Assembly: GCF_010122465.1 (NCBI RefSeq)
Contig: NZ_WLZY01000001.1
Location: forward strand, 1,149,010-1,213,009
DNA length: 64,000 nucleotides
Source of the DNA: Phytoactinopolyspora mesophila
Lineage (GTDB): Bacteria; Actinomycetota; Actinomycetes; Jiangellales; Jiangellaceae
Reading direction: 5' to 3'
Positions 31,166 to 55,809 of the stretch are shown here, in pieces. The notes below the pieces were generated by a model. It was not told where the DNA came from. It saw nothing but the letters and a program-made list of their open reading frames with translations, and searched no databases. Position 1 is the first letter of the stretch, and each line of letters opens with the position of its first letter. A program made the translations under genes and the position numbers.

Positions 31166-31180
31166 TTCAGGCTCCTCCGA

Positions 31181-32281: not shown

Positions 32282-32307
32282 GTCGTCCTCGCTCTCGGCT
32301 GGCCGTA

Positions 32308-33468: not shown

Positions 33469-33494
33469 AGGTCTCCGTTCTCTGGCTCTCGTTG

Positions 33495-33572: not shown

Positions 33573-35059
33573 CGGCGTGGCAAACCGGCTTCGCTCATGG
33601 ACACGGCCTTCACCTGTGTCCACTCGAGTACGGAATCGGCGCCCATGTTGCGGCCAAAACCGGAGTTCTTGTAGCCGCCGAAGGGTGCGCCGATGGCGGC
33701 AGCGCCGAAGGCGCTGTTCACTCCGACCTGGCCGGCCTGCAATGCACGGCTGGCCCGGACGGCCCGGCCCACGTCACGGGTCCAGATGGAGGCGACCAGG
33801 CCGTAGTCGGTGCCGTTGGCGACCTCGAAGGCCTCGGCCTCGTCGTCGACCGGAATCACCGACAGGACCGGCCCGAATATCTCTTCACGGGCTATCCGCA
33901 TGTCCGGGTCCACCTTGTCGAAGATGGTGGGTTCGACGAAGAAGCCGTCGTCGAATTTGTCACCCGCGGGCACACCTCCGCCGAGGACGAGTTCGGCGCC
34001 GCTCTCCTTGCCGATGTCGATGTAACCCAGCACGCGCTCGTGCTGCTTCTTGTTCACCAGCGGCCCCATGGTGACTTGTTCGTACCAGGGCCCGACGGTG
34101 ATCTCCTCCATCTGTTTCGCCAGCCGCTCGACCACCTCCTGATGGATGCTGCGCTCGACCACCACGCGTGAGCCGGCGGCGCAGATCTGGCCGGTGTTCA
34201 GGGTGATCGACCAAGCCATTCCGCGGACGGCGGCGTCGAGGTCGGCGTCGGAGAAGACGACCTGGGGCGACTTTCCGCCCAGCTCGAGATGGAGCGGGGT
34301 GAGGTTCTGCGCGCAGGCGGCCATGATGATCCGGCCGGTCTCCGGGGAGCCGATGAAGGCCATCCGGCGGACCTTGGGGTGGGCCGGGATGGCCGCCCCG
34401 GCCTCGGCGCCGTACCCGGTGACGACGTTGATGACACCTGGCGGGATACCCACCTCGAGCGCGAGCTTGGCCAGCGCGAGCGGGGTCAGCGGGGCGTCCT
34501 CGGCAGGTTTGATGACGATGGTGTTGCCGGCGGCGATGGCGGCGCCGACCTCGACGGCGAACAACGGCCCTGGGGCATTCCACGGAATGACCGCCCCGAC
34601 GACGCCGTAGGGCTCGCGGAGCGTGAAACCGACGGCCTCCGGGTGGTGAGTGGGCAGCGAGACGCCGTGGACCTTGTCAGCCTGTCCGGCGATGAATCGG
34701 AGCTGACGCCCCATTCCTGGCGGGCCCCAGCTCGGCCGGCCGACCTCTTGCGACTCGAGGCTGTCGAGTTCGGTGCCCTTGGCGTCGATGAGGGCGGCCC
34801 ATTTGAAGATCAGCTCGCCGCGAGCGGTCGCGCTCATGTCCCGCCACGCGGGGAGGGCGCGTTCGGCCGCTTGGACGGCGTGCTCGACGTCGTTCTCATC
34901 GCTGCGTGGAATCCGGGCGATGACGTGCTGATTGGCTGGATTGATGACATCGATCGTGCGGCCGGTGGCGGAGGGGACCCACTCGCCGCCGATGAGCTGA
35001 ACGCCGTCGAGGAGGATGTCGGGGTCTACGGTGCCGCGGGTGCCGGAGGTGACGGTCAT
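33569..35059 (-). CDS. Aldehyde dehydrogenase (NAD(P)+), ALDH superfamily 2
   Basis: A 496-residue ALDH. It shows PWNAPGP (159-165), FIGSPETG, general base E259 in LELGGK and nucleophile C293 in GQICAAGS. The ATG has AAGGA 9 nt upstream. It lies between two NDMA-type ADHs, so it probably removes their aldehyde product. A shadow of its tail forms the repeat at 33495-33572. Confidence 0.91.
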   Translation of the reverse strand: MTVTSGTRGTVDPDILLDGVQLIGGEWVPSATGRTIDVINPANQHVIARIPRSDENDVEHAVQAAERALPAWRDMSATARGELIFKWAALIDAKGTELDSLESQEVGRPSWGPPGMGRQLRFIAGQADKVHGVSLPTHHPEAVGFTLREPYGVVGAVIPWNAPGPLFAVEVGAAIAAGNTIVIKPAEDAPLTPLALAKLALEVGIPPGVINVVTGYGAEAGAAIPAHPKVRRMAFIGSPETGRIIMAACAQNLTPLHLELGGKSPQVVFSDADLDAAVRGMAWSITLNTGQICAAGSRVVVERSIHQEVVERLAKQMEEITVGPWYEQVTMGPLVNKKQHERVLGYIDIGKESGAELVLGGGVPAGDKFDDGFFVEPTIFDKVDPDMRIAREEIFGPVLSVIPVDDEAEAFEVANGTDYGLVASIWTRDVGRAVRASRALQAGQVGVNSAFGAAAIGAPFGGYKNSGFGRNMGADSVLEWTQVKAVSMSEAGLPRR

Positions 35060-35092
35060 GAAAGTGTCCTTAAGGTCAGTGTTGGCTCGGAC

Positions 35093-36256
35093 TCACTCGT
35101 GATCGATGAGTACGACGCCGCGGATGTTCTTGCCGTCGAGCATGTCCTGGTAACCCTCGTTGACCTGGTCGAGGGTGTAGGTGCGGGTGACGAGTTCGTC
35201 GAGTTTGAGCTTTCCCGACTTGTACATGCTCAGCAGCCGAGGTACGTCGGTGAGCGGGTTGCAGGCACCGTAGATGTTGCCCTGGATGCGGCGCTGGAAG
35301 CCGATCAACGGGCCCGGATTCTCCTTGATCATGCCGGGACCGACAGCGGTGATAGTGACTTGACCGGACTTGCCGACGATGTTGATAGCGTCGTGAATCA
35401 CCTCGTCGTTCAGTACGCCCACGGTGATGATGGCGTGGTCGGCCAGTTCGCCCCACGTGACGCCGCGGACGAATTCGAAGGCTTCCTCCGCCGTCGCGAA
35501 GGTGTGGGTCGCGCCGAACGTGGGAGCCATCTCGCGCTTGAACCCGACGGGGTCCACAACGACGACCCGTTCGGCACCGGCCATCGCCGCACCTTGCACG
35601 GCGTTGGAGCCGACACCGCCGGCGCCGAAGATCACTACGGTCTGCCCGGCGCGGACTCCTGCCGCTCTGACAGCCGAGCCCCACCCCGTAGGCACCCCAC
35701 AGCCGACGAGACAGGCGACCTCGAAGGGGATGTCCTTCGCAATCTTGATGACAGAAGACTCGGAGACCACCGAGTACCGGGTGAAGGTACCGAGCACACA
35801 CAACCCGCCGTAGTCCTCGCCGTCCTTGTGGAAACGGAAGGTGCCGTCCTGCAGGACCCCGATACCGGCGTTCTTTCCGTCGTCGCAGAGGTTCTGCCGG
35901 CCGGAGGAGCAGTACCGGCAGCGGCCGCAGACCGGGATGAAGGATGCGACCACGTGGTCGCCGATCTCCACCCGCGTCACGCCCGGGCCGACGGCGTCGA
36001 TGACACCCGCGCCCTCGTGACCTCCGACCACCGGCATCCGCATGGGCGCGTCGCCCTTCTGGATGTGGTCGTCGGAATGGCACAGTCCTGCGGCGTAGAT
36101 CTTGATCCGGACCTCGTTGGCCTTGGGCGGGTCGAGCTCGAGTTCGGTGACCTCCCACGGCTTACCCGGCTCGCGGCACACCACGGCTTTGGTGGTCATC
36201 CTCGTGGATGACGTGTCGGGCGTCGATGGTTCGGCGATGCTCGCGGTAGTGCTCAT
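35093..36256 (-). CDS. NDMA-dependent (mycofactocin-associated) alcohol dehydrogenase 3
   Basis: A 387-residue zinc MDR enzyme, the closest relative being the one at 10983. Catalytic ligands are C59, H80 and E81; structural cysteines C110, C113, C116 and C124; GFQRRIQGNIYG and VTRTYTLDQVNEGYQDM are the family signatures. The ATG at 36256 has AAGGAG 6 nt upstream. A shorter form from 36199 matches the homologues' N termini, so the first 19 residues may be an extension. It is the first gene of the 36256-24219 operon. Its promoter carries both the shared operator and an MftR-like palindrome. Confidence 0.9.
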   Translation of the reverse strand: MSTTASIAEPSTPDTSSTRMTTKAVVCREPGKPWEVTELELDPPKANEVRIKIYAAGLCHSDDHIQKGDAPMRMPVVGGHEGAGVIDAVGPGVTRVEIGDHVVASFIPVCGRCRYCSSGRQNLCDDGKNAGIGVLQDGTFRFHKDGEDYGGLCVLGTFTRYSVVSESSVIKIAKDIPFEVACLVGCGVPTGWGSAVRAAGVRAGQTVVIFGAGGVGSNAVQGAAMAGAERVVVVDPVGFKREMAPTFGATHTFATAEEAFEFVRGVTWGELADHAIITVGVLNDEVIHDAINIVGKSGQVTITAVGPGMIKENPGPLIGFQRRIQGNIYGACNPLTDVPRLLSMYKSGKLKLDELVTRTYTLDQVNEGYQDMLDGKNIRGVVLIDHE

Positions 36257-36343
36257 GTGTCTCCTTCTCCCGCTGCTGGCCAAGGCCTTCGGAGCTGTAC
36301 CTCGATGATGGCTCAAGCGTGCGGGTGAGGCAGCTCCGTTGCT

Positions 36344-36356
36344 GGCACTTGGTGCC
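36344..36356. promoter_or_regulatory. Second MftR-like operator, at the start of the ADH3 operon
   Basis: GGCACTTGGTGCC differs from the palindrome at 17463-17475 only in the central bases and is extended to TGGCAC-TTG-GTGCCA. It directly abuts the predicted -10 hexamer (36362-36357) of the ADH3 promoter, so a bound protein would block the start site. Confidence 0.5.
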
Positions 36357-36407
36357 AATACTCGCCACGCCGGTCGGGCAGCTCAATACCCTTTCCATCT
36401 CGCGGAA
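36357..36407 (-). promoter_or_regulatory. Predicted promoter with shared operator, unit 36256-24219
   Basis: Operator TTCCATCTCGCGGAA is at 36393-36407; then 7 nt, TGAGCT (36385-36380), 17 nt and AGTATT (36362-36357) on the minus strand. The start site falls in the MftR-like palindrome next to it. Confidence 0.6.
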
Positions 36408-42527: not shown

Positions 42528-43476
42528 CCCGTCCCGAGAAGGATTCGGCCATCTGCTCCCACGCCGGCCTAGGTGTGCTGTGCGGCACCAGATGATGTAA
42601 CGCGAGGGTGCGCACACCAGCTTTTTCGGCGATGGCAGCAGCCTGGGCGGGCGTGGTGTGAGCCGCTCGATGGTGCTCCAGCACCGCCTGATGCTCAGCC
42701 GTGGGAGACGCGGCATAGATCCGTTCGGCCCAATCCATGTCGAGCGCCTCGTGCAGCAACAGCTCGGCGCCGTCGGCGATACGAACCGTGTTGTCGGTCG
42801 GTGCCGTGTCGCCGGACACGACCACCGAACCTTCGTCACAGTCGAGGCGAAAGGCGAAAGCCGGGGCCAGCGGTGGGTGCTTGACCAAGATGCTCGTTAC
42901 GCGCACGGCGTCGTCCTCGAAGACCTGTATCGGTTCCATGGCAGGACAAGGGTTGAGGTTCGGATGGAAATCGAGTGTCGCGGGCAAGGTGATCTCCTGG
43001 GCCTCGAATAGCTCCCATGGGCTCGGCCGCTTCGCGTCGTAGCGGCGGTCGTTGATGTCGGTGGCGTACGCATGCAGGAGGTGCTCTACGGTGGCGCTGA
43101 TTCCGGGCGTCGGATGACCGGGCGACACCGGGAGCAGCCCGTCGGCGTCGCGCCAGGGCAAACACCCTCGGGAACCGGGCCCCACGATCGGGATAGGAGT
43201 GTCTCGCCGCTGGATCCGCATCATTCCGAAGATCATCAGGCTAGCGAGGTCGACGACATGATCGGAATGCAGGTGCGTGATGAAGATCGCCCGGAGGCTG
43301 GGCAGCGTGAGTCCCGCGTCGATGAGCTGCTTTCCGACGCCGGAGCCGGCGTCGATCAGGTAGGTGCGATCACCCACGACCACTGCGGTCGCGATGCCGG
43401 CCCGATCCGTGCCTTGGACCCACGACGGACCGCCGCCGGTGCCGAGGGTGATCACCCGTGCCGCTTCGTCGCGCAT
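42451..43476 (-). CDS. MBL-fold metal-dependent hydrolase (RNase Z/arylsulfatase-like)
   Basis: A 341-residue metallo-beta-lactamase-fold protein. The di-metal motif is THLHSDH (67-73), with a later GDTAPTDN aspartate, HEALDMDW and HHLVP histidines, typical of the RNase-Z-like subgroup that also includes arylsulfatases and dehalogenase-like hydrolases. The ATG at 43476 overlaps the amidohydrolase stop by 1 nt (TGATG); the longer frame to 43737 is antisense-like. It is the last gene of the 47767 unit. Confidence 0.85.
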   Translation of the reverse strand: MRDEAARVITLGTGGGPSWVQGTDRAGIATAVVVGDRTYLIDAGSGVGKQLIDAGLTLPSLRAIFITHLHSDHVVDLASLMIFGMMRIQRRDTPIPIVGPGSRGCLPWRDADGLLPVSPGHPTPGISATVEHLLHAYATDINDRRYDAKRPSPWELFEAQEITLPATLDFHPNLNPCPAMEPIQVFEDDAVRVTSILVKHPPLAPAFAFRLDCDEGSVVVSGDTAPTDNTVRIADGAELLLHEALDMDWAERIYAASPTAEHQAVLEHHRAAHTTPAQAAAIAEKAGVRTLALHHLVPHSTPRPAWEQMAESFSGRVMAPDDLEVCALTRRRTLPVGRHVG

Positions 43477-44354
43477 CAGCTCAGTCCGAGCAGGCCCGCA
43501 GCGTTGTCCCGCATGATCAGCTGGGTGACGTCCTCGTCGAAGCCCAGCTTCTCGAAGTCTCGTATCCACCGCTCGGGGGTCAGGACCGGATAGTCGGTCC
43601 CGAAGAGCATCTTGTGCTTGAGCAGCGTGCGGGCGTACTGGACCAGGTTCGGCGGAAAGTACTTCGGCGACCAGCCGGACAGGTCGATGTGCACGTGCGG
43701 CTTGTGCAGCGCCACCGAGAGCGCCTCGTCCTGCCACGGGAACGACGGATGCGCGAGGATGATCCGTAGTTCGGGGAAGTCGACGGCGACGTCGTCGGCG
43801 TACATGGGGTTGGCGTATTTGAGCCGGATGCCTCCGCCGCCGGGCCGCCCGGCGCCGGCTCCGGTGTGGCCGCTGTGAAACAGCGCGATCGTCCCGGTCT
43901 CCTCGATGGCCTCGTAGATCGGGTAGACGTCCCGGTCGTTGGCGTAGAAGGCCTGGCTGCTGGGGTGAAATTTGAAGCCGCGCGCGCCGTGCTCGGCGAG
44001 CCGGCGGACTTCACGGGCGGCCCTGCGGCCCGCGTGCGGGTCGACGGCGCCGAACGGGATGATCACGTCGGGGTATTCGGCGGCGAGGTCACACAACTCG
44101 TCGTTGCTGACCTCGGGCAGCTCACCGGTCGCCCAGCTGTTGTCCACCGTGAAGGCGACACACATCATCTTCAGCTCGCGGTAATAGCCGGCGAGGTCGT
44201 GCACGGTCGGGCGCGGCATGTCCGTCTTGAAGTACTTGGCCATGGCCTCGTCATGCTGTCTCGCCTCCTCCCCAGCTGATTTGCGCGCCGAGGAGAGGAC
44301 GTGTGTGTGGACGTCGATCGCGACGACGTCGTCGTTCAGCTTCACCACTGTCAC
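43476..44354 (-). CDS. Amidohydrolase-2 family hydrolase
   Basis: A 292-residue TIM-barrel hydrolase. It has DVHTH (14-18) for the metal, FHPS, LFHSGHTG, ILAHPSFPWQDE and FGTDYP. Close relatives are annotated as beta-ketoacyl-CoA hydrolases in phenylpropanoid side-chain degradation, which would fit next to a CoA-transferase, but that is not proven. Three GTG codons are possible; 44354 has AGGAG 5 nt upstream and overlaps the CoA-transferase stop by GTGA. Confidence 0.84.
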   Translation of the reverse strand: MTVVKLNDDVVAIDVHTHVLSSARKSAGEEARQHDEAMAKYFKTDMPRPTVHDLAGYYRELKMMCVAFTVDNSWATGELPEVSNDELCDLAAEYPDVIIPFGAVDPHAGRRAAREVRRLAEHGARGFKFHPSSQAFYANDRDVYPIYEAIEETGTIALFHSGHTGAGAGRPGGGGIRLKYANPMYADDVAVDFPELRIILAHPSFPWQDEALSVALHKPHVHIDLSGWSPKYFPPNLVQYARTLLKHKMLFGTDYPVLTPERWIRDFEKLGFDEDVTQLIMRDNAAGLLGLS

Positions 44355-45754
44355 CACTGCTCCTGAATGATGCGCGGATTCTCAGCCACCTGTAGGGGCA
44401 TTCCCGTGCGGGCGACGACTTCGTCCACGGTGAACCCGTCGGCGATCTCTTCGAGGACGAATCCGTCGTCGCCGCGGCGCAGCAACGCGAGGTCCGTGAC
44501 GACGACGTCGGTACAGCCTGCCGCGGTGATCGGGTAGTCGCAGCGCTCGACCAGCTTGGGCCGGCCCTTGGAGTCCACGTGCTCCATGGTCACGATCACC
44601 GACCGGGCGCCGACGGCGAGATCCATGGCGCCGCCGATGCCGCCTCCGGGCCGGCCCGGATGAGCCCAATTCGCGAGGTCGCCGTTGCTGCCGACCTGAT
44701 AGGCGCCGAGAATCACCGCGTCGAGGCGTTTGCCGCGGGCGATCTCGAACGATGTCACGGAGTCGAAGAAGCTGACACCGGGCAGCAGGCCGATGAAGTT
44801 CCCGCCGGCGTCGTGGAAGTCCGGATCGGCCTCCTCGAGTTCGATGAACTTTCCGTAGTTGAGGATGCCGTTCTCCGCGTGGAGCACGACGCCTCTGCCC
44901 TCGAGGTAGTTGACCACGCCGTTCGGCAGCCCAGCGCCCAGGTTGATCACCGCGCCGTCCTCCAGCAAGGCCGCGGCCCGGCGGCCGATCTCCTGCCGGG
45001 ACAGCGCCGGTTTGCCGTCGTACTCTCTGCGGGAGTCCGCCGGCCGGGCCGAGCGCTGCGGCAACTCGGAGACATCCACCCGAGTGGTCGTCTTGACCAC
45101 TCGGGCGATGAAGATCCCGGGCAGGTCGATCTCCTCGGGTCGCAGGCCGCCGACGTCGACGATCTCTTCGACTTCGATGATCGCGGTACGGGCGGCTTTG
45201 GCGAAGCTGTCATTGAAGTTCCGGCTACCGCCCCGGAACTGGACATTGCCGTAGCGGTCCGCGCGGTAGCCACGCAGGATCGCGTAATCAGTGGTGATGC
45301 CCCGCTCGAGGATGTGCGGCTCACCGTCGAAGTAGCGCACATCCTTGCCCTCGGCCACGGCGGTGCCGACGCCCACAGAGGTGTAGAACCCGGGAATTCC
45401 CGCACCCCCCGCCCGCATCCGCTCGACCAGGATGCCCTGCGGCACCACCTCGAACGCCATCGTTCCCGCCACGATCTGCTCCTCAGCGATCGTGGGTTTA
45501 CCCGGCCGGGATGAGAAGCTCGCCACCAGGTGGGAGATCTGCTCGTTCTCCGCCAGCAACTGTGCCGTCGGCGCGCCCGGCGAACCCAGACCGTTGCAGT
45601 AGACCGTCAGGTCCTTCGCACCGTGATCACGCAGGGCCAGGATCAGACTGGAAGGAAACCGATGCGAGATGCCGAAACCGGAGATCGCGACCGAGGCGCC
45701 GTCGGGGATGTCGGCCACAGCCGCCGCTGGGGAGTCGAAAACCTTGTCCGTCAT
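44351..45754 (-). CDS. 3-Oxoacid CoA-transferase, alpha and beta subunits fused
   Basis: A 467-residue class I CoA-transferase. The alpha half has ISGFGISHRFPSSLILAL; the beta half starts near LSRQEIGRRAAALLEDGAVINLGAGLPNGV and contains AENGILNYG, with the glutamate that forms the enzyme-CoA thioester. PGRPGGGIGGAMDL is the usual C-terminal part. Actinobacteria mostly encode the two subunits as separate genes; here they are joined in one frame. It would move CoA from succinyl- or acetyl-CoA to an oxoacid. The ATG has GAGGAG 9 nt upstream. Confidence 0.9.
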   Translation of the reverse strand: MTDKVFDSPAAAVADIPDGASVAISGFGISHRFPSSLILALRDHGAKDLTVYCNGLGSPGAPTAQLLAENEQISHLVASFSSRPGKPTIAEEQIVAGTMAFEVVPQGILVERMRAGGAGIPGFYTSVGVGTAVAEGKDVRYFDGEPHILERGITTDYAILRGYRADRYGNVQFRGGSRNFNDSFAKAARTAIIEVEEIVDVGGLRPEEIDLPGIFIARVVKTTTRVDVSELPQRSARPADSRREYDGKPALSRQEIGRRAAALLEDGAVINLGAGLPNGVVNYLEGRGVVLHAENGILNYGKFIELEEADPDFHDAGGNFIGLLPGVSFFDSVTSFEIARGKRLDAVILGAYQVGSNGDLANWAHPGRPGGGIGGAMDLAVGARSVIVTMEHVDSKGRPKLVERCDYPITAAGCTDVVVTDLALLRRGDDGFVLEEIADGFTVDEVVARTGMPLQVAENPRIIQEQW

Positions 45755-45802
45755 CCGTTGTTGCTCCTCACTCCTGAGATTTCTGCCCGGGGTCGCGGAC
45801 CG

Positions 45803-46672
45803 TCAGCCCTCAGACCTGGATTCTCGATGCCGTGGCGACCCGGCCGCGCCGCTGTTACGGACCGCGGCGAAACCACCACCGTCCACCGACAGCACCTGAC
45901 CAGAGATCCACCGGGCCTGGTCAGTCGAGAGGAAGTAGGCGGCCGAGGCGATGTCCCACGGGGTGCCTTCGGTCTGCAAGGCGACGTTCTTCCGGCGCAG
46001 CTCGCGCATCTCCTCGTCCATGCCCCGCGCGGCAAAGGCGCCCCAGATCATCCCGACCCGCACACAGTTGACCCGGATGCCGTGCGGGGCGAGCGAACTG
46101 GCCGCACCGACGCTGAGCTTCTCCAGCGCGGTTTTCGCGACGCTGTACGGCAGGCCTGGCCCGCGGCCCTCGGCGGCGCCTGAAGAAACGGTGACGATGC
46201 TGCCGCCCCGGTTCATGTGTTTGTACGCGTTGCGCATGAGCAGCAAGGCCGAGGTGCAGTTGACGTCGATCGCGGAGTACCACTCGTCGAGCGGAGCTTC
46301 GAGGATGGGGCTGATGCCGCCGCCGCCGATGGTGGTGGCGACGACGTCGATGTTCCCGAAGCGCTGCACCACCTCAGCGATGGCCCGGGCGACCGACGCG
46401 TCGTCGGTGATGTCGACGTCAAAGGTCTCGGCGTCACCACCCTGACCGCGGATGGCGTCCACCGTGCGCTGGCCGGCCTCCCGGTCGCGGTCGAGCACCG
46501 CCACCGAGGCACCGCCACGGGCATACAACCAGGCGATGCCGAAGCCGACGTTACCGAGCGGACCGCTCAGGCCACCGCCGGCCACGACGGCCACCTTGCC
46601 CGCCAGCCATTTCTGATCCCCGGAGGCGATCGGATCCTCGATGGGAAGCGGCCATGTCTCCTGCGACGTCAT
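45803..46672 (-). CDS. Short-chain dehydrogenase/reductase
   Basis: A 289-residue SDR. The cofactor loop is unusually long and glycine-rich (AGGGLSGPLGNVGFG, residues 31-45) compared with TGxxxGIG. Catalytic Ser (TVSSGAAEG) and Tyr/Lys (YSVAKTAL) are intact, and ISGQVLSVDGGGFAA near the C terminus is canonical. The ATG at 46672 has GGAG 8 nt upstream; a TTG at 46684 is less likely. It lies between the GWSDGLP protein and the CoA-transferase in one unit. Confidence 0.88.
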   Translation of the reverse strand: MTSQETWPLPIEDPIASGDQKWLAGKVAVVAGGGLSGPLGNVGFGIAWLYARGGASVAVLDRDREAGQRTVDAIRGQGGDAETFDVDITDDASVARAIAEVVQRFGNIDVVATTIGGGGISPILEAPLDEWYSAIDVNCTSALLLMRNAYKHMNRGGSIVTVSSGAAEGRGPGLPYSVAKTALEKLSVGAASSLAPHGIRVNCVRVGMIWGAFAARGMDEEMRELRRKNVALQTEGTPWDIASAAYFLSTDQARWISGQVLSVDGGGFAAVRNSGAAGSPRHRESRSEG

Positions 46673-46729
46673 GCGGTACTCCAATGAGCTTCGTTGCTGG
46701 GTTGGGCGAGGTGCGGAGATCCCGGCGGG

Positions 46730-47957: not shown

Positions 47958-49583
47958 TCACTCACCGACCCATTCCAGGCTCGCCCACGGAGTGTTGTTG
48001 GTCTGTCCCGAACCGTCGTCGAGGTTGGCCCATCGACTTGTGTTCACCGTGTGGTTCGACCCGTTGGTCCAGGCCAGCGGCGCCCAGAAGGTCAGCTCCT
48101 TGAGTCGCTCCTGAACGGTGTGAAAATGCGTCGCCCGCTCCTCGCGGTCGAGCGTGTTCAGTGCGGCGCCGGCAGCGGCGTCGAGCTCCTCGTCGCACAC
48201 ACCCGAGCCGTTGTTCAGCGGAACCCGGTCCGGGTTGCAGGTCACCCACCGGGTCAGGCCGATGCTGGGGTCCGCGCCGACCGTCGTTCGCAGGATGAAC
48301 ATCCCGAAGTCGCTCTCCTCGAACACCTTCTCCATCCACACCGGCTCCGCGGAGCCGACGAGGTTCACGTCGATGTTCACCTCGGCCAGCGAGGCCTGGA
48401 CGATCTCCGCGACGGCCGCGGCCTCGGAATGCGCCGAGATGAAGCGCACGTCCAGCGAGAAGCGGGAACCGTTCCCCTGGACCGGATATCCCGCCGCGTC
48501 GAGACCCGCGTTGATCGCGTCGATGTCACGCGGGAAGTCGGCGGAGAAGTTGATGCCTGGGTGCTGCGCCCATGCGAGCGTGTCCGGGTAGAAGGACTCG
48601 GCCGGCTCCCCCAGGCCACTGAGTCCGAGGCGGGTCACCGCCTCCCTGTCGATCGCGGCGAACACCAGCGCCCGGACCTCCGGATCCTCCAACTCGGGAA
48701 GGAGCCCGTTGAACGTCATCCCGATCAGCTGCCGGAACGCGCCCCGCTCCATCAGCTTCAGATCGGGATGAGCTGCTACCTCGTCCTGCTGTGCGGGATC
48801 TACCACCGCCACGTCGAGTTCACCTGACAGCAGCGAAAGGGTCCGGGTATTGACGTCACTCATCACCGGGTAGATCGCACGGTCGACCTGCGTCTCGCCA
48901 CGCCACCAGTTCGGGTTGCGCACCAGCACGACCTCATCACCCGGGTTGTAGGACTCGAACATCATCGGGCCGGTCCCGATCGGTGCCATGTTCGCCGGAT
49001 TGGTGACGTAGTCGGTGCCCTCGTAGATGTGCTTGGGAACAAGCGCCTGCTGGGACAGGGCCTCCAGCAACGGCCCGTACTGCGTGTTCAGGTGCAACAC
49101 GACGGTGTGCTCATCGGGGGTCTCGATCGAATCGATCGTCGCCGTGAGCGGACCGCCGAAGGTCTGCAGCGGCATGATCTCCTCGAAGTTGAACGCCACA
49201 TCCTCGGCGGTGAAGGCCTCTCCGTCGTGCCACTGAACCCCTTGTTCCAGGTAGAACGTTACCGTCGAGTTGTCGTCGGCGAACTCCCACTCACGGGCCA
49301 GCCCAGGAATGATCTCGTATTCGTCGGTGACCTCGAGCAGAGAACCCAGGATCGTGAACCCGAACCGTAGCGGGATCGGCCCTCCGGCGAACTGAGGGTT
49401 CAACGAAGTAGGGTCATCGCCGATCGCCTCGACGTACACCCGCTCGGCACCGGATCCGCCGTTGCCGTTTGCGCCGACCCCGTTCTCGCCGGCCCCGCTT
49501 CCGTCGTCGCTCTGCCCACACGCGCACAGGGCGACGGCCGCGGACGAGGCAATCGCCATCAATCGCTTCCTAGCACTCAACAT
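47958..49583 (-). CDS. Oligopeptide-type substrate-binding lipoprotein (SBP_bac_5), importer B
   Basis: A 541-residue lipoprotein: MLSARKRLMAIASSAAVAL and lipobox LCAC, then a Gly/Asn linker. Family-5 features include TVTFYLEQGVQWHDGEAFTAEDVAFNFE and MAPIGTGPMMFESYNPGDEVVLVRNPNWW. The ATG at 49583 has GGGGAG upstream; a longer start at 49616 is possible. Unusually, it is the last gene of its transport operon, after the ATPases. The ligand is unknown. Confidence 0.88.
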   Translation of the reverse strand: MLSARKRLMAIASSAAVALCACGQSDDGSGAGENGVGANGNGGSGAERVYVEAIGDDPTSLNPQFAGGPIPLRFGFTILGSLLEVTDEYEIIPGLAREWEFADDNSTVTFYLEQGVQWHDGEAFTAEDVAFNFEEIMPLQTFGGPLTATIDSIETPDEHTVVLHLNTQYGPLLEALSQQALVPKHIYEGTDYVTNPANMAPIGTGPMMFESYNPGDEVVLVRNPNWWRGETQVDRAIYPVMSDVNTRTLSLLSGELDVAVVDPAQQDEVAAHPDLKLMERGAFRQLIGMTFNGLLPELEDPEVRALVFAAIDREAVTRLGLSGLGEPAESFYPDTLAWAQHPGINFSADFPRDIDAINAGLDAAGYPVQGNGSRFSLDVRFISAHSEAAAVAEIVQASLAEVNIDVNLVGSAEPVWMEKVFEESDFGMFILRTTVGADPSIGLTRWVTCNPDRVPLNNGSGVCDEELDAAAGAALNTLDREERATHFHTVQERLKELTFWAPLAWTNGSNHTVNTSRWANLDDGSGQTNNTPWASLEWVGE

Positions 49584-49652
49584 CGAGTCTTCACTCCCCA
49601 AGGGATCAGAGAACACAACCGATTCGGTACACAGCAGCTCGGCGCCGTTGGC

Positions 49653-50444
49653 TCAGCGCTGGTCGATCACCTCCAAGACCGGGGAAGCCGCCAGCAAGGT
49701 CTTGGTGTACGGGTGATCAGGGTCGGAGAAGATCTTCTCTTTGGTGCCTTCTTCGACGATCTCGCCCGACTTCATGACGTAGACGTAGTCCGCTACCTTC
49801 TTCACCACCGGTAGATCGTGAGTGATGAAGACGTACCCGATGCCCAGCCTCTCCTTGAGGTCGTTCATCAAGCGCAACACCCCCGCTTTGACCGAGGCGT
49901 CCAGGGCTGAGACCGCCTCGTCGGCGACGATGATCTTCGGATCGAGCACGATGGCCCGGGCGATGAGCACGCGCTGGCGCTGGCCTCCGCTGACCTCGTG
50001 TGGGTAACGGTCCAGGACGGTCTCAGCCTGGTCGAACCCGACCAGGCGCAGCACCTGCATGACCTTCTCATCGACGGCCGCGCGCCCGCTGGCGATCCGG
50101 TGCAGCCGCACGATCTCCCCGATCGCGCGGCGAACCGTCTTTCGCGGGTTGAGCGATCCGGCAGGGTCCTGCAACACCGCCTGCACGCTTCGCCGATAAT
50201 GCCTCAACTCCGACCGGCTCATTCCGGCGAGGAGCACGCCGTCGAGCTCTATCCCGCCGGAGCTCGCCGGGATCAGCCCGAGCAACATCCGCGCGAGCGT
50301 GCTCTTACCACTCCCGCTCTCGCCCACGATCGCGACGAACTCCCCCGGCCGGGCCTGCAACGTCGCATCCTTGACCGCATGGACGGGACCGGAGCCGCGC
50401 GATGCGCGGAAGGTTTTCGAGGCGTGTTTCATCTCAAGCAGCAT
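49653..50444 (-). CDS. Oligopeptide-type ABC importer ATPase (OppF-like), importer B
   Basis: A 263-residue ATPase with Walker A GESGSGKST, signature VSGGQRQR, Walker B IIVADEAVSALD and VFITHDLPVVK. It lacks the long C-terminal cysteine extension of the importer A ATPases. Its start overlaps the OppD-like gene by 11 nt. Confidence 0.91.
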   Translation of the reverse strand: MLLEMKHASKTFRASRGSGPVHAVKDATLQARPGEFVAIVGESGSGKSTLARMLLGLIPASSGGIELDGVLLAGMSRSELRHYRRSVQAVLQDPAGSLNPRKTVRRAIGEIVRLHRIASGRAAVDEKVMQVLRLVGFDQAETVLDRYPHEVSGGQRQRVLIARAIVLDPKIIVADEAVSALDASVKAGVLRLMNDLKERLGIGYVFITHDLPVVKKVADYVYVMKSGEIVEEGTKEKIFSDPDHPYTKTLLAASPVLEVIDQR

Positions 50445-51366
50445 CCGGGCTTCCTCCCTTCCCCGAGGTCGCGTTCACCGGCCAGGCGGCTTCCTCGTCG
50501 AACGCGGACGCCGATGGCTGGTCTTCGAGCCAAGCCCGGAACGAGGGCGGGATGGAGTACAGCTCCACGCCGTCGTCGGTCAGGCTGCGCACGCTGCGAA
50601 GCAGTACTTGGGTGTAGGGATGCTGAGGGCTGTTCAGCACGTCCGTGGTCGGTCCGGACTCGACGACCCGTCCGCCGTACATCACATAGATCCGGTCCGT
50701 CATGCTGGCCACCACGGCCAGATCGTGAGAGATCAGGATCAGCGACGTCCCGAGTTCGGAGACCGTCTCGTCCAGGGTGCGCAGAACCCGTTGCTGGACG
50801 GTGGCGTCCAGGGCCGTCGTGGGCTCGTCGGCGACGATCAGCTCCGGGCGTTTGGCGATCGCGATCGCGATGAGGACGCGCTGGCGCATTCCACCGCTCA
50901 GTTCGTGCGGGAAACGCTGAGCCAGACCAGCCACGTTGTCGAGTCCGGCGAGCGAGAGGAACTCCAGGACCTCCGCGTTCACCTCCCGGCTCCGGGCGCG
51001 CCCAGCGGGAATCGACTCCTCGACCTGGCGCCCGATCCTCATCACCGGGTTCAAGAAGGTCAACGGATCTTGGAAGATCATTCCGACCTTCGAGGCACGG
51101 ATCTTCTGCCACGCTCTGGGACCGGCACCGACCAGCTCCTGCCCATCGAATTCGATCGATCCGGTGACCTTGACCCGAGGACTGGCCGGCAGAAGACCCG
51201 CGATCGAGCGTCCCGTCACCGACTTCCCGGATCCGGACTCACCCACGATCCCGACGCGCTCGCCCCGCCGGACACTCAAGCTCACATCCTTGACCGCTTC
51301 GATCTCGCCGCGCACGCCGGTGGGAAGGCGCACCGCCAGATTCGTGACCCTCAGCAGCTCACTCAT
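50434..51366 (-). CDS. Oligopeptide-type ABC importer ATPase (OppD-like), importer B
   Basis: A 310-residue ATPase beginning MSELLRVTNLAVRLPTGVRG. Walker A is GESGSGKSVTG, the signature LSGGMRQR, Walker B LIVADEPTTALD. The C-terminal cysteine segment of typical OppD is replaced by a short acidic tail. The open frame reaches 51996 but the ATG at 51366 overlaps the permease stop as ATGA and is clearly the start. Confidence 0.91.
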   Translation of the reverse strand: MSELLRVTNLAVRLPTGVRGEIEAVKDVSLSVRRGERVGIVGESGSGKSVTGRSIAGLLPASPRVKVTGSIEFDGQELVGAGPRAWQKIRASKVGMIFQDPLTFLNPVMRIGRQVEESIPAGRARSREVNAEVLEFLSLAGLDNVAGLAQRFPHELSGGMRQRVLIAIAIAKRPELIVADEPTTALDATVQQRVLRTLDETVSELGTSLILISHDLAVVASMTDRIYVMYGGRVVESGPTTDVLNSPQHPYTQVLLRSVRSLTDDGVELYSIPPSFRAWLEDQPSASAFDEEAAWPVNATSGKGGSPDAA

Positions 51367-52307
51367 CGCTTCACCTTGCCGATCGACGGGTTGAGCGAAT
51401 CGTTCAACGAGTCGCCGAGCATGTTCACCGCGAGGACGACGGTGAATATGCACAGGCCGGGGAACAACGCGAGCCACCAACCGGACTGCATGTACGACTG
51501 CGCCGAATTCAGCAACGCGCCCCAGCTCGGCCGGTTCGCATCGCCGATCCCGAGGAAGGCCAGGGCCGACTCGACCAGGATCGCGCGGCCCACCGTCATG
51601 GTCGTCGCGACGATCACCGGAGGCATGGCGTTGGGGATGACGTCGGACCACAGAATCCGGAGACTCTTGAAGCCCGCCGCCCTCGCCGACTCGACATAGC
51701 CGAGCTGCGCGATGCGCATCGTCTCGGCACGCACGATTCTCGCCACCGCCGGCCACAAGGTCAGCGACAGGATCGCCACGATGATCCACACATTGGCCCC
51801 CAGCAACGCCGCGGCGACCAACGCGAGAATGATGCCCGGGAGGACCTGGAAGAACTCCGCGACCTTCACCAGCAACGTGTCGGCGAACTTGCCATAGAAG
51901 CCGGCCAGCCCGCCGACGATCAACCCCAACGTCATACACAGGATCGCGACGGTGAACCCCACCAGCAACGACACCTGTCCGCCGCGCAGCACCCAAGCGA
52001 GGTAGTCACGCCCGAGCTGGTCGGTGCCCATCGGGTATTCCGAGCTCGGCGGCGCCAGAGTCGGATGGCTGACCGAGATCGGACTGCCGGCGAAGATCGG
52101 CCCGACGAACGAGATCAAGGTCATGATCACCAGCAGCGTCAGGAAGACGATTGTGCCCGGCTTTCGTATGTACGATTTCCAGACCGACTCCCGCTGCCCG
52201 GGTGGCACCCTCATGCTCATGCCTGGCGGCGGGTCCACGCGGGTGCCCCGCGGCGCACCCGTACCGGCGTCTCTCTTCCTTCTCTTCTTGCCCTGCAGGA
52301 CGGTCAC
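51363..52307 (-). CDS. Oligopeptide-type ABC importer permease (OppC/DppC-like), importer B
   Basis: A 314-residue permease with a basic N terminus, OppC_N helix, MGTDQLGRDYLAWVLRGGQVSLLVG and the coupling loop VRAETMRIAQLGYVESARAAG. The GTG at 52307 has GAGGAG 8 nt upstream and overlaps the OppB stop (GTGA); the frame extends to 52595 without support. Confidence 0.9.
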   Translation of the reverse strand: MTVLQGKKRRKRDAGTGAPRGTRVDPPPGMSMRVPPGQRESVWKSYIRKPGTIVFLTLLVIMTLISFVGPIFAGSPISVSHPTLAPPSSEYPMGTDQLGRDYLAWVLRGGQVSLLVGFTVAILCMTLGLIVGGLAGFYGKFADTLLVKVAEFFQVLPGIILALVAAALLGANVWIIVAILSLTLWPAVARIVRAETMRIAQLGYVESARAAGFKSLRILWSDVIPNAMPPVIVATTMTVGRAILVESALAFLGIGDANRPSWGALLNSAQSYMQSGWWLALFPGLCIFTVVLAVNMLGDSLNDSLNPSIGKVKR

Positions 52308-53284
52308 GAGTCGCTCCTCGCTGGCTGCGCGAACCTCGTCCGAAGCCGCGGATCGACGATGCCGTAGACCACGTCGGTCAGGATGTTCACGATCAGGATC
52401 ACGACGGTGATCATGATGACCACTCCGAGCACGACCTGATTGTTGTTGCGCTGGATGGCATCCAGAAGCAGCAGACCCATTCCCGGCCAGCCGAAAACCC
52501 GCTCGACCACAACGGAGCCCGCCAGGGCGAACCCGAGGCTGTAACCACTGACCGTGACCATGGGCAGCAGGCCGTTCGGCAGCGCATGACGCCACATCAC
52601 CCGGTTACCCGGCAGTCCTTTCGAGCGGGCGGTGTCGATGTAGTCCTGCCCGAGCGATTCGATCATCGATGAACGCATGATCCGCGCCTTGTAGGCCAGC
52701 TCACTCGTCGCCATCGTGAAAACCGGCAGGATCAGATATTCAATGGCAATCCCGCTTTCCCCATAGGGACTGTTTCCCTGGGTCGGTAGCCAGCCGAGAT
52801 TCATCGAGAACACCATGATCAGGAGCATTCCGAGCCAGAAATTCGGTATGGAGAAGAACGCCACTGCCCCGGCTGAGATGGTGCCGTCCAGCCACCGCGA
52901 CCGAGTACGCGCGGCGATCGCTCCGAGAAGGATGCCGCCGGCCGTGGAGAGCACGAATGCGGGAATGGCCAAAGCCAGGGTGTTCCAAATCCGGCTCATG
53001 ATCAGCTCGGCCACCGTCATAGATGAACCGAACGAATACCCCAGATTCCCGGTGAAGACATTGCCGAGGTAGATGAAATACCGTTCCCACACCGGCCGGT
53101 CGAGCCCGAATGTGGCCACCACTTGTGCCCGGAACTCATCCGAGACCGGGTTGTCGCCGATGAGGCTCTGGACTGGATCACCTGGTGCGATCTCGAGTAA
53201 CAAGAACAGTACCGTGATGACCACGACAAAGAGCAGCAACGAAGAAGCCAGAAGCCTCCCGTAATGGACGAAGATCGGCTTCAT
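52304..53284 (-). CDS. Oligopeptide-type ABC importer permease (OppB/DppB-like), importer B
   Basis: A 326-residue permease starting MKPIFVHYGRLLASSLLLFV, with LEIAPGDPVQSLIGD, the coupling loop DTARSKGLPGNRVMWRHALPNG and the C-terminal LLLDAIQRNNNQVVLG. The ATG at 53284 has a poor ribosome site but overlaps the stop of an 18-residue leader ORF (ATGA). A TTG at 53344 in frame would overlap its own GGAGGAG site and is unlikely. It is the first structural gene of importer B. Confidence 0.89.
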   Translation of the reverse strand: MKPIFVHYGRLLASSLLLFVVVITVLFLLLEIAPGDPVQSLIGDNPVSDEFRAQVVATFGLDRPVWERYFIYLGNVFTGNLGYSFGSSMTVAELIMSRIWNTLALAIPAFVLSTAGGILLGAIAARTRSRWLDGTISAGAVAFFSIPNFWLGMLLIMVFSMNLGWLPTQGNSPYGESGIAIEYLILPVFTMATSELAYKARIMRSSMIESLGQDYIDTARSKGLPGNRVMWRHALPNGLLPMVTVSGYSLGFALAGSVVVERVFGWPGMGLLLLDAIQRNNNQVVLGVVIMITVVILIVNILTDVVYGIVDPRLRTRFAQPARSDS

Positions 53285-53337
53285 CGCACCCCGCTGACCC
53301 GGCTCGATATCGAGCCACAAGCCCGAGATAGCACCAT
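53281..53337 (-). CDS. 18-residue leader ORF coupled to importer B OppB gene
   Basis: The ATG at 53337 has GGAGGAG 7 nt upstream. The 18-codon frame (MVLSRACGSISSRVSGVR) ends in TGA overlapping the permease ATG as ATGA. It has the same design as the leader at 47764-47835. Confidence 0.5.
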   Translation of the reverse strand: MVLSRACGSISSRVSGVR

Positions 53338-53465
53338 TCCACAACTCCTCCGCATCTTCATCGACGGCAGGAATACCACCATCCCGTCCGCGCGAGGCGA
53401 GCCTCTCCTATTGACCGGCAACTACCGGAATAGTCGACGCTGGATCATGGCGTTACGCCGAATTG

Positions 53466-53545: not shown

Positions 53546-54118
53546 CTAGTGGTCGTTCGTCGCCGTGAGCGTGCCCGACGGGAGGTGGCCGAGTAGCCGC
53601 GCCGCCACCTCAGGAGCCAGCTCACCGGCGCGGCGCTCGATCTGCTCGTTGGTGAGGTTGGCGACCGGGTGCTGGGTCAGGAGGAATCCGTAGTCCGCGT
53701 CACCCTGCAACTCAGCCATCGCCCGGGAGGTCGTCTCGAAGGCATCGGTGCAGATGACGGCTGCCGGCAGGCCGGCACGCTCCAGGGCGATCCCGTCCGC
53801 CACGGCCGCCGCGCTGCACGAGCCGCAGTCTCCGACTCCGACGACCACGACGTCACAGGCGTTCTTCAAGTCGGCGAGCAGTTCCTCGTCAAGCGGCATC
53901 GCGAACTGCGTCTTCGTTCGCCGCACCAGCTCGACGCCCCCATGCGCTTCGTCGAGCGCCGCGCCGACCGCGTCGAGAATCCGATCCGCGTTGCGTTTGG
54001 TGTTCTCCAGTAGTCCGACGCGCAGTCCGTCCAGGCTCGAGACGACGGGCGGCGTACCACGTTCCGCGGTGACCCGGTCGCGAGCTCGCGCGGTCGGGTC
54101 GATTATTCCGTCTACCAT
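53546..54118 (-). CDS. UGSC-family redox protein, cysteine form (CGSC)
   Basis: A 190-residue protein with the family motif as GVGDCGSCSAA: C98-G-S-C101. In many relatives the first residue is selenocysteine (U-G-S-C); here the codon is TGC, so cysteine. The surrounding VVVVGVGD and AVICTDAFETTSRAMA suggest a flavodoxin-like alpha/beta fold with the CxxC at a loop, as in thiol oxidoreductases. Function in the family is unknown. The ATG at 54118 has GGAGG 7 nt upstream, and the shared promoter ends about 28 nt before it. Neighbours are a NifU-like CxxC protein and a thioredoxin-reductase-like gene. Confidence 0.85.
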   Translation of the reverse strand: MVDGIIDPTARARDRVTAERGTPPVVSSLDGLRVGLLENTKRNADRILDAVGAALDEAHGGVELVRRTKTQFAMPLDEELLADLKNACDVVVVGVGDCGSCSAAAVADGIALERAGLPAAVICTDAFETTSRAMAELQGDADYGFLLTQHPVANLTNEQIERRAGELAPEVAARLLGHLPSGTLTATNDH

Positions 54119-54145
54119 GATCAACCTCCGATGTGTCGAGCACAA

Positions 54146-54196
54146 ACTATGAAGCGCGCCCGGAGCCGGGCGCATGCGTGCTTCCGTCTCGCGGAA
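54146..54196 (-). promoter_or_regulatory. Predicted promoter with shared operator, UGSC gene
   Basis: Operator TTCCGTCTCGCGGAA is at 54182-54196, inside a larger inverted repeat (ATGCGTGC 54174-54181 and GCACGCAT 54199-54206). On the minus strand come 7 nt, TGCGCC, 17 nt and -10 CATAGT (54151-54146), the same -10 as in the GWSDGLP unit. Confidence 0.7.
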
Positions 54197-54265
54197 AAGC
54201 ACGCATCGCCACGACCGCGCGCTACCGCCGGCCCTGTCGGGCCGGTCATCTCCTTGCCGCGCCGG

Positions 54266-54523
54266 TCACTTCTCGCTGGCGGGCAGCACCACATGATCGA
54301 GCCGGTAAGGGGTCGAGGCCAGCGCCTCGGACATGATCGCTTCCATGACCGGCTGCGGGACGAGGCAATCGGCGCAGGCACCCTCGCCGGCCTCGATCCG
54401 CACGACAACACCGTCGCCATCGGTCTTCGACCACGTCAGCAGATAGCCGTCGCTGGCCATCATCTCGCGGAACTTCCGTAGTGCCTCGTCCACGGCAGCA
54501 CTGCCGCCGCTGGCCTGTGTCAT
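54266..54523 (-). CDS. Small NifU-C-like protein with CxxC motif
   Basis: An 85-residue protein resembling the NifU C-terminal domain: ALRKFREMMASDGYLLTW, a strand DGVVVRIEAGEGACADC and VMEAIMSEAL. The paired cysteines are C50 and C53 (CADC), at the place of the NifU CxxC. Such domains carry an iron-sulfur cluster or act as thiol carriers. The ATG has GGGAGG 8 nt upstream. It lies just upstream of the UGSC gene with 147 bp between. No function is established. Confidence 0.72.
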   Translation of the reverse strand: MTQASGGSAAVDEALRKFREMMASDGYLLTWSKTDGDGVVVRIEAGEGACADCLVPQPVMEAIMSEALASTPYRLDHVVLPASEK

Positions 54524-54843
54524 CGCGAGCCTCCCGCCGGTTGCTCGCCCGCACCTGTGGGAGCGGGAACCGTCTGTCGCCCTCTCATCTCACTCGGTCT
54601 CCTCGTTGTACCGGTCCTTATGTGTGTCCTCTGAGCAGCAAAACACGTCGTCTGCACGTGACCGAGAGGACTTTCACCCGCCGGAAGGCCGGATTGCCCA
54701 GGCCCGCTCCGATCCCGTCCGGATGAGGTTCCCGTCCGGTGGAAAGGCAGGTCCCGGGCGTGAGTGCCGGGTGATAGTCAAGGGAAATGTCCAGCATCGG
54801 CATCCGGCTGCGAAGCCGTCGTCGCGAGAACGAGGAGCAACCG
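54524..54843. other. Divergent intergenic region between the NifU-like and reductase genes
   Basis: A 320-bp region without a convincing gene. It contains the shared operator at 54730-54744 facing the reductase, and a degenerate copy TTTCACCCGCCGGAA at 54672-54686 that might serve the NifU-like gene. The frame from 54787 may be a 5' extension of the reductase. Confidence 0.6.
54730..54778 (+). promoter_or_regulatory. Predicted promoter with shared operator, reductase gene
   Basis: Operator TCCCGTCCGGTGGAA is at 54730-54744; the -10-like GATAGT is at 54773-54778, 28 nt after the operator edge (30 in most other units). Transcription would start near 54786. Confidence 0.55.
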
Positions 54844-55809
54844 TTGCGCAACATGGTCATCGTCGGTTCGGGACCGGCCGCGTTCACCGCCGCGATCTAC
54901 GCATCCCGAGCCGGCCTTCAGCCACTGCTCGTCGCGAGCTCGGTAGAGGTCGGCGGCGAGTTGATGAACACGACCGAGGTCGAGAACTTTCCGGGCTTCC
55001 CGGAAGGCATCCTCGGGCCTGACCTGATGATGCGGTTCCAGGCACAGGCCGAGCGCTTCGGCACTGAGGTCGACGTCGAAGACGTCGTCGAACTCGACCT
55101 CGAGTCACGCGTCAAACGCGTGCGGCTCGGTAACGGAGTCGTCCACGAGTGCGCGACGGTGATCGTCGCGACCGGTTCGGCCTACCGCAAGCTCGGCCTT
55201 CCCGAGGAGGAACGCCTGTCCGGGCACGGCGTGTCCTGGTGCGCCACCTGTGACGGCTTCTTCTTCCGCGGCAAGACGATCGCGGTCATCGGTGGTGGCG
55301 ACTCGGCGATGGAGGAGGCGACCTTCCTCACCCGGTTCGCCAATCGGGTCTATGTCGTGCATCGCCGGGATACCCTGCGCGCGTCGCACATCATGCAACA
55401 GCGGGCCTTCGACGATCCGAAGATCACCTTCATCTGGAACTGCGAGATCACCGCCATTCACGGCGACGACATGGTCACTGGGGTGGCGCTGCGCGACACC
55501 GCCACAGGCGAGCGCCGCGACCTAAAGCTCGACGGCCTGTTCGTGGCCATCGGTCACGACCCGCGGACCCACCTGGTCCACGGCAAGCTCGACCTCACAT
55601 CCGACGGCACCATCGCGGTGCAAGGTCGCTCGTCACGGACGTCGGTCGAGGGCGTATTCGCCGCTGGAGACGTGGTCGACCCGCACTACCGCCAGGCGAT
55701 CACCGCCGCCGGCTCCGGCGCCGCCGCCGCCCTGGATGCCGAGGCCTACCTCGCCACCTTCTCCACAACCACGGCAAGCGCCGGCCAGGTGGCAGCCACG
55801 ACGGCCTGA
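54844..55809 (+). CDS. Thioredoxin-reductase-like NAD(P)H flavoprotein
   Basis: A 321-residue protein of usual TrxB length. It has the FAD motif GSGPAAFTAAIYASRAG (8-24), the redox-active CATC at 133-136, a NAD(P) motif GGGDSAMEEATFL and GVFAAGDVVDPHYRQAITAAGSGAAAALDAEAY at the C terminus. The TTG at 54844 follows GAGGAG and gives the standard N terminus (M)RNMVIVGSGP; an in-frame ATG at 54787 coincides with the predicted transcript start and could be a leaderless start. No thioredoxin gene is adjacent, so the UGSC or NifU-like protein may be its partner. Confidence 0.9.
   Translation: MRNMVIVGSGPAAFTAAIYASRAGLQPLLVASSVEVGGELMNTTEVENFPGFPEGILGPDLMMRFQAQAERFGTEVDVEDVVELDLESRVKRVRLGNGVVHECATVIVATGSAYRKLGLPEEERLSGHGVSWCATCDGFFFRGKTIAVIGGGDSAMEEATFLTRFANRVYVVHRRDTLRASHIMQQRAFDDPKITFIWNCEITAIHGDDMVTGVALRDTATGERRDLKLDGLFVAIGHDPRTHLVHGKLDLTSDGTIAVQGRSSRTSVEGVFAAGDVVDPHYRQAITAAGSGAAAALDAEAYLATFSTTTASAGQVAATTA

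Follow-up and report, generated by a model that had tools for sequence, protein, structure and literature searches.

UGSC and its partner family QGW in Phytoactinopolyspora mesophila: a possible new type of thiol- or selenium-dependent enzyme, perhaps remotely related to the glycine and proline reductases

A 64-kb stretch of the Phytoactinopolyspora mesophila genome (hereafter the window, meaning the whole stretch of DNA that was analyzed) carries a cysteine (Cys)-containing member of the UGSC family, in which selenocysteine (Sec) is common, next to genes for a NifU-like protein and a thioredoxin-disulfide reductase (TrxR), a trio that the original prediction had taken for the functional unit of a thiol redox relay. 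Comparative analysis of this region and its relatives revealed that the partner of UGSC is a previously unnamed family of about 345 aa, which that prediction had overlooked and which is named QGW here. Because their genes adjoin each other, are fused in some organisms and have diverged in a correlated manner, UGSC and QGW may be the two subunits of one enzyme. It looks like an unrecognized type that uses thiol or selenium chemistry to break down imported molecules and is perhaps a remote relative of the glycine and proline reductases.

The UGSC gene of the window (UGSC_B) belongs to the UGSC-containing selenoprotein family by the curated cut-offs of both of its models, with 206.4 bits against PF24696 (cut-off 25, E 4.4e-61) and 162.8 bits against NF041046 (cut-off 125). 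Its open reading frame (ORF; 53546-54202, minus strand) opens at a GTG at 54202; the true start is likely the ATG at 54118, which yields a protein of 190 aa, because an operator would otherwise fall within the ORF. The original prediction rightly placed UGSC in a known family that often contains Sec, and the available parts of the literature describe this family without an assigned function and suggest a thioredoxin-like fold (PMC2398784, PMC13188914). With 255 Sec sequences, UGSC ranks among the five largest selenoprotein families in the Global Ocean Sampling table (PMC2398784, available in part). Beyond these descriptions, the present analysis contributes a near-constant partner, a predicted fold of another type and a possible tie to GrdB and PrdB. 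The genome of P. mesophila encodes two UGSC proteins (UGSC_A and UGSC_B) and two QGW proteins (QGW_A and QGW_B).

A search with PF24696 covered 396 genomes of the phylum, including that of P. mesophila; 29 had a match, 27 of them over the cut-off, and 40 of the 46 places listed were taken as stretches for comparison, the remainder being the copy in the window itself, three matches of partial length and two that were full but weaker. UGSC was detected above 60 bits by our own profile in 37 of the 40 stretches, and QGW was located within 1500 bp of 36 of the 37 UGSC genes, the single exception (L044) starting less than 0.8 kb from a contig end. In L048, QGW is fused to a UGSC domain that is degenerate and scores 22 bits, and two stretches with family matches below the cut-off (L049 and L050) contained neither UGSC nor QGW by our profiles. 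In the reverse search, which used QGW against named genomes of many phyla, UGSC was present within 1500 bp in 71 of the best 80 of 563 relatives, a proportion that is not unbiased because the query had been built mostly from UGSC-adjoining QGW copies; it was within 4 kb in three more and absent from the stretch in six, two of which (L107 and L113) end at a contig end, and the genomes of all six have UGSC elsewhere. Both families are encoded in a single ORF in L043, L045 and L047. The distance matrices of UGSC and QGW from 95 single pairs were correlated with an r of 0.88, compared with 0.13 at best in 2000 permutations, part of which could be accounted for by vertical descent.

Searches of Pfam and NCBIfam with a limit of E 1 returned nothing for QGW_B, and neither did a search of PDB sequences for QGW at the same limit; when 27 members were scanned against Pfam and NCBIfam, no model was matched by more than two of them (best scattered match E 8.6e-4). 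The family alignment contains a near-invariant Cys, and D28, G29, P31, C79, R146, and E180 are among its conserved residues. A domain with a conserved Cys fused to UGSC was described as UGSC/Unknown_1 in the Global Ocean Sampling survey (PMC2398784, available in part), and the near-invariant Cys of QGW leads to the guess that Unknown_1 may be QGW. Two to four QGW genes accompany a single UGSC gene in several stretches (L080, L092, L094, L126, L146, and L194), as would be expected if QGW sets the substrate.

Within the genus, UGSC was found in two of four other genomes (G407 and G408), and it was found in none of the 17 genomes listed from other genera of the same family. In the window, QGW_B lies on the same strand as UGSC_B at a distance of 5.8 kb, with an importer between them (Table 1). 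The gene order in G407 is TrxR divergent from NifU-QGW-UGSC-QGW-SDR-IclR-importer-CoA-transferase, and that in G408 is TrxR divergent from UGSC-QGW-UGSC-QGW-SDR-CoA-transferase-amidohydrolase-IclR-importer. As both genomes keep UGSC and QGW adjacent, with the importer after them, the order UGSC_B, importer, QGW_B is a rearrangement in the window lineage. The shared operator of the original prediction was also recovered: the palindrome TTCCN7GGAA occurs at six sites in the window (36393, 38830, 40013, 47899, 53503, and 54182), including one upstream of UGSC, against 0.49 expected and at most two in 100 shuffles, and an imperfect site lies in the divergent region between NifU and TrxR, which in parts has the same sequence in three genomes of the genus, one of them with a run of N. 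The site at 36393 accompanies a set of linked catabolic genes. A gene at 36480-37301, with relatives in L071, L194, L195, and L196, probably encodes an IclR-type regulator, as read from its sequence, and may bind the operator.

Table 1. Coordinates of the UGSC-QGW genes, operators and neighboring features in the window
Feature	Position	Strand	Remarks
UGSC_B, Cys form of the UGSC (seleno)protein family	53546..54118	-	PF24696, NF041046
CGSC redox motif of UGSC_B	53816..53827	-	Cys codons 53825-53827 and 53816-53818; agrees with [U/C]GSC
UGSC_A	G000:C1:1148230-1148736		Second UGSC gene, about 270 bases beyond the window start
QGW_B, 345 aa	46730..47767	-	GWxDGLP and NAVMAGC motifs; Cys79 codon 47531-47533
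QGW_A, 3' part	1..871	+	Partner of UGSC_A, which it directly follows
NifU-like 85-aa CxxC protein	54266..54523	-	CADC at 54365-54376; putative optional accessory
TrxR, second copy in the genome	54787..55809	+	CATC at 55240-55251
Operator TTCCGTCTCGCGGAA	54182..54196	.	Between NifU-like gene and UGSC_B, upstream of UGSC_B
Operator TTCCACGTCACGGAA	53503..53517	.	Upstream of importer
Operator TTCCGTGACGTGGAA	47899..47913	.	Upstream of QGW_B
Imperfect operator	54729..54746	.	NifU/TrxR divergent intergenic region; recognizable in two same-genus genomes
Oligopeptide-type ABC importer	47958..53344	-	Between UGSC_B and QGW_B
Importer permease ORFs	52304-53344, 51363-52595	-	Named from reading the ORFs, not from a family search
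Importer ATPase ORF	50434-51996	-	Named from reading the ORF, not from a family search
Importer ATPase ORF	49653-50444	-	ABC_tran and oligo_HPY
Importer substrate-binding protein	47958-49616	-	SBP_bac_5, E 1.3e-69
SDR dehydrogenase	45803-46684	-	Downstream of QGW_B
Fused 3-oxoacid CoA-transferase	44351-45754	-	Downstream of QGW_B
Amidohydrolase	43476-44357	-	Downstream of QGW_B
Linked catabolic genes	30161..36358	-	Amidohydrolase, three zinc alcohol dehydrogenases (two NDMA-type), aldehyde dehydrogenase

The three adjoining genes with cysteine pairs (CGSC in UGSC, CADC in the NifU-like protein and CATC in the reductase) on which the original prediction was built are in place, and the absence of a thioredoxin gene among them is confirmed by a PF00085 search of the genome, which located no thioredoxin in the window and trxA on another contig. 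The NifU-like protein scored 16 bits against PF01106 (cut-off 27, E 0.013), and its CxxC is kept in seven aligned copies; the copy in G407 is 74% identical to that of the window, a second locus in G408 has a weak relative (35%) about 6 kb from the UGSC gene there, and in L072 a NifU-like gene lies with two QGW genes in a stretch that lacks UGSC. The reductase of the window scored 378.7 bits against TIGR01292 (cut-off 343.45), with the CxTC site present as CATC; two TrxR genes of the genome exceed this cut-off, this one and trxB, which lies beside trxA on contig C4. Since this other copy stands with trxA and the TrxR gene is the divergent neighbor of the UGSC/QGW operon in both G407 and G408, the window copy looks dedicated to the UGSC module; its 61% identity to the trxA-linked trxB and the CATC common to both suggest that it probably uses thioredoxin.

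The idea that the trio is a conserved unit found no support beyond the genus. Among 120 wider loci, a single-query tblastn search, whose short query may miss diverged NifU-like copies, detected NifU-like genes in six and, in two, relatives of TrxR with 33% and 28% identity, compared with QGW beside 36 of 37 UGSC genes. The survey of genomes envisaged for the trio therefore gave a divided answer, with TrxR beside the UGSC operon in G407 and G408 and NifU in G407, and without such conservation in the wider loci; of the proposed thiol redox module, what stands is a set of genes with common operators forming one block with the importer and catabolic genes, and what lacks support is the trio as its conserved core. 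A redox connection of another type is suggested by QGW itself. Among 138 QGW copies, 38 had an open frame of at least 110 aa upstream, and a profile built from 11 of these extensions matched 33 of the 38, 30 of them with CxxC, so that 33 of the 138 copies carry the matching extension. When ten extensions were scanned, one matched TraF over the cut-off and several matched Thioredoxin below it; by these weak single Pfam matches the extension may be a thioredoxin-like domain, and that other lineages fuse such a domain to QGW suggests the involvement of thioredoxin.

The distribution of Sec and Cys in UGSC was analyzed in 122 matches above 60 bits. The first Cys of the CGSC motif of UGSC_B aligns with an in-frame TGA (Sec) of UG[SAG]C in 110 of them, and a Cys codon was found in this motif in 6. 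The remaining six include three whose TGA belongs to a deviating motif (UGSS in L136, UDGC in L047, and UGNC in L097) and an incomplete one in L118. In Geodermatophilus ruber (L074, 7390-7975), one UGSC gene occurs as two halves, with TAG where its relatives have TGA. In Geodermatophilus, UAG is known to be recoded as Sec; a literature search made here did not turn this up. The Cys/Sec pair of the UGSC CxxC is invariant in 30 aligned members, and L136, outside this set, has Ser at the second place. SelA was matched in 8 of 11 genomes tested, among them that of P. mesophila, whose partial match of 23 bits (cut-off 22.8) was not counted as SelA; of the three genomes without a SelA match, G150 and G102 list only stop-free UGSC genes and G036 has a TGA form.

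A structural model of UGSC (pLDDT 91.6) consists of five alternating beta-alpha units with the CxxC at a helix start, and its structural neighbors are flavodoxin- or Rossmann-like proteins with modest scores (best Foldseek E 9.6e-4, best Z 10.6). The model thus predicts an architecture other than the thioredoxin fold suggested for UGSC in the available part of PMC2398784; no thioredoxin appears among its listed Foldseek and VIA-align matches, which excludes nothing by itself. Among PDB sequences, neither UGSC nor one GrdB had a meaningful match. In a scan of 30 UGSC members against the whole of NCBIfam (E up to 1), the glycine reductase selenoprotein B model TIGR01917 was matched by 18 (best E 1.2e-6), and further matches were obtained with GrdF (sarcosine; 13 members), PrdB (5), GrdH (4), and TIGR01918 (4), while models outside UGSC and the selenoprotein B reductase group were matched by at most three members. 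In an hhalign comparison of 117 UGSC with 9 GrdB/PrdB-type sequences (the site pattern having been found in 9 of 19 loci), the two profiles aligned over 106 columns with Sec/Cys over Sec/Cys (probability 82.3%, P 1e-5). Eight column-shuffled controls reached 3.8% at most, and 28 of 30 unrelated neighbor-gene families used as controls reached at most 11.4%, GrdB/PrdB ranking first. A remote relationship of UGSC to GrdB/PrdB, though outside that group, is likely but not proven.

The GrdB, GrdF and GrdH proteins (TIGR01917, NF040794, NF040795, PF07355) resemble UGSC in having a UxxC-type Sec/Cys site, and the matches are centered on Sec. GrdB-type enzymes also have a second substrate subunit, and the electron donor of the known enzyme is the thioredoxin system, according to the available text of PMC3091704. 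On the other hand, UGSC is a free protein of about 190 aa and not a portion of a chain of about 430 aa, and QGW shows no similarity to GrdE. D-proline reductase PrdB (TIGR04483) is similar to UGSC in being a short separate Sec subunit with UxxC and a separate partner, and 5 of the 30 UGSC members match it weakly; it differs in that monooxygenase genes are also found near UGSC and in that its partner PrdA is a pyruvoyl protein (PMC3091704, available in part), whereas QGW matches no PF09338 model.

Several results weigh against such a relationship, or against the enzyme proposed here as a whole. The window UGSC matched a geranylgeranyl reductase model (E 7.9e-5) better than GrdB (E 0.0044), and UGSC scores were far under the GrdB/PrdB cut-offs (16.0 versus 602.2 for TIGR01917 and 13.8 versus 300 for TIGR04483). 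The hhalign probability was 46% (P 2e-4) against two full GrdB sequences, and one control family reached 73.3% (P 3e-5) over 32 columns covering the CxxC region and another 41.4% over 93 columns. QGW was also considered as a GrdE-like pyruvoyl protein and rejected, since its hhalign probability against two GrdE was 0.2% and PF09338, to which PrdA presumably belongs, was unmatched in 27 QGW members; UGSC and QGW may thus do without the pyruvoyl chemistry known from those enzymes. To these can be added the biased QGW query, the possible share of vertical descent in the correlated divergence and the rarity of TrxR in the wider loci.

As separate observations, PrdB-like Sec proteins with the motif UPxC were noticed in L154, L155, L157, L158, L163-L165, and others, which are probably another uncharacterized Sec reductase-like family. 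With PF07355 such proteins turn up in most of 11 UGSC-bearing genomes tested (matches in 10, one of which also has a true GrdB), and PF09338, the GrdE type, was matched in one of five tested.

The largest expansion of UGSC was observed in Chloroflexi bacterium NC_groundwater_644 (G400, JACPQD01; loci L078, L090, L095, L111, L133, and L203-L210), a metagenome-assembled genome (MAG) of 5.0 Mb, for which the best 150 of 208 UGSC candidates and the best 150 of 232 QGW candidates were scored and the rows of this genome were counted by hand. At least 128 UGSC genes are present among the matches listed, at least 125 of them with in-frame TGA (exactly one in 122) and three without, and at least 18 lie on one 350-kb contig; many open frames of 550-650 aa have a size fitting UGSC-QGW fusions. 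In eight stretches (155 kb, picked for density), all 31 UGSC genes have one TGA in UGxC and a QGW within 325 bp, and their median pairwise identity of 28%, with one pair above 90%, implies that most copies are not strain duplicates. When TGA was treated as a stop in calling 67 neighboring ORFs, 21 of them ended in this codon, which gives no sign of its reassignment, and SelA was matched with 469 bits. Among 66 neighboring ORFs scanned, 27 encode family-5 binding proteins, the family of the binding protein of the window importer. The largest bacterial selenoproteome that we found in print comprises 63 genes, with a caution by its authors on mixed strains (PMC13188914, available in part); the TGA-containing UGSC genes of this MAG would be about double that number, and the same caution holds here. 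A literature search found no report of a selenoprotein expansion in Chloroflexota.

The neighbors of the pair in the window include an importer and catabolic enzymes. Downstream of QGW_B, the SDR, CoA-transferase and amidohydrolase genes (43476..46684) follow with gaps of 45, 48, and -7 bases. Relatives of the SDR and CoA-transferase lie beside UGSC/QGW in L194 and L196, those of the amidohydrolase in L196, and those of the CoA-transferase and amidohydrolase in L071. Furthermore, in L071 (a Streptosporangiaceae MAG) and L195 (G408), a UGSC-QGW pair is located between relatives of ADH31181 and ADH32341, which are adjacent in the window (31181-33468), and this placement ties the pair to the catabolic gene set of the window; both loci also hold relatives of the aldehyde dehydrogenase, the NDMA-type dehydrogenase, the amidohydrolase and the importer. 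No common substrate could be read from the neighbors, as 91 of 123 listed operon neighbors yielded 109 Pfam families, none in more than five members. A guess from sequence was rejected: the gene at 35093-36358, taken for a P450, is an NDMA-type alcohol dehydrogenase by family search. The thiamine pyrophosphate (TPP) enzyme at 1498-3144 fell below all cut-offs shown (best 234.7 bits versus 620) and is therefore not named a sulfoacetaldehyde acetyltransferase.

A working mechanism, which we consider possible and put forward tentatively, is that an imported substrate is bound by QGW and reduced or cleaved by the Sec or Cys of UGSC, after which UGSC is restored through thioredoxin. The sequence of events is modeled on two known enzymes: a proposal for D-proline reductase, in which the Sec of PrdB is the attacking group and the selenoether is then opened by a Cys of the same protein, and the account of glycine reduction, in which electrons of NADPH pass through thioredoxin reductase and thioredoxin (PMC3091704, available in part). 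All chemistry and the substrate are inferred. In this scheme, QGW would bind a small molecule delivered by the importer of the same gene block, the first Cys of UGSC (Sec in most relatives) would attack it, reducing or cleaving a C-N or other C-X bond, and the second Cys of the CxxC would resolve the adduct as a disulfide. UGSC might then be re-reduced by NADPH via the dedicated TrxR and thioredoxin or, in other lineages, via the thioredoxin-like domain fused to QGW. The NifU-like protein would be an optional thiol or metal accessory, and the SDR, CoA-transferase and amidohydrolase may process the product.

Other explanations account for parts of these observations. UGSC and QGW might form a detoxification or antioxidant thiol-disulfide system, similar to a peroxidase or disulfide reductase, instead of a catabolic enzyme; the CxxC/UxxC motif, the adjoining TrxR and the thioredoxin-like fusion are all consistent with it, UGSC has been grouped with thioredoxin-fold redox selenoproteins (PMC2398784, PMC13188914, both available in part), and a peroxidase activity of GrdB is reported in the title of a reference cited in PMC3091704 (also available in part). 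We consider this unlikely, given that the neighbors are importers and catabolic enzymes, that several QGW genes may share a single UGSC and that more than 100 copies occur in one genome with a median identity of 28% (in the sample of 31), a copy number and divergence that fit substrate diversity better than stress defense. About equally improbable is a Cys/Sec nucleophile acting without net redox change, as in an isomerase, transferase or lyase, with QGW forming the pocket and the reductase merely keeping the thiol reduced. Such a role would suit close neighbors that handle CoA and keto acids and the predicted position of Sec at a strand end and helix start in a Rossmann-like fold, but it needs neither the Cys/Sec pair that is invariant in 30 aligned members nor a thioredoxin-like domain on QGW with CxxC in 30 of 33 cases. 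The relay of the original prediction, in which electrons go straight from TrxR to UGSC or the NifU-like protein, with the trio as the functional unit, draws on the three adjacent cysteine-pair genes, the adjoining TrxR in G407 and G408 and NifU in G407, and the CxxC of seven NifU-like copies. It now seems very unlikely, because NifU and TrxR accompany 6 and 2 of the 120 wider loci and QGW is nearly always present, and because the likeness of the window TrxR to the trxA-linked trxB marks it as a probable thioredoxin user.

The substrate-cleaving UGSC-QGW enzyme also leads to a broader claim, still somewhat doubtful, that the pair represents an undescribed and widespread class of two-subunit Sec/Cys reductases cleaving many imported compounds, with a distant selenoprotein B ancestor, a new non-pyruvoyl substrate subunit and more than 100 Sec-encoding copies in one Chloroflexota genome, above the published upper bound that we found. 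Now that UGSC has a partner, may be linked to GrdB/PrdB and occurs in P. mesophila in a Cys form with what looks like a dedicated TrxR, its function becomes an enzyme question that can be tested without selenium. If cleavage of C-N or other C-X bonds in diverse imported compounds proves true, the UGSC-QGW family would represent a large and unrecognized route of organic-matter breakdown.

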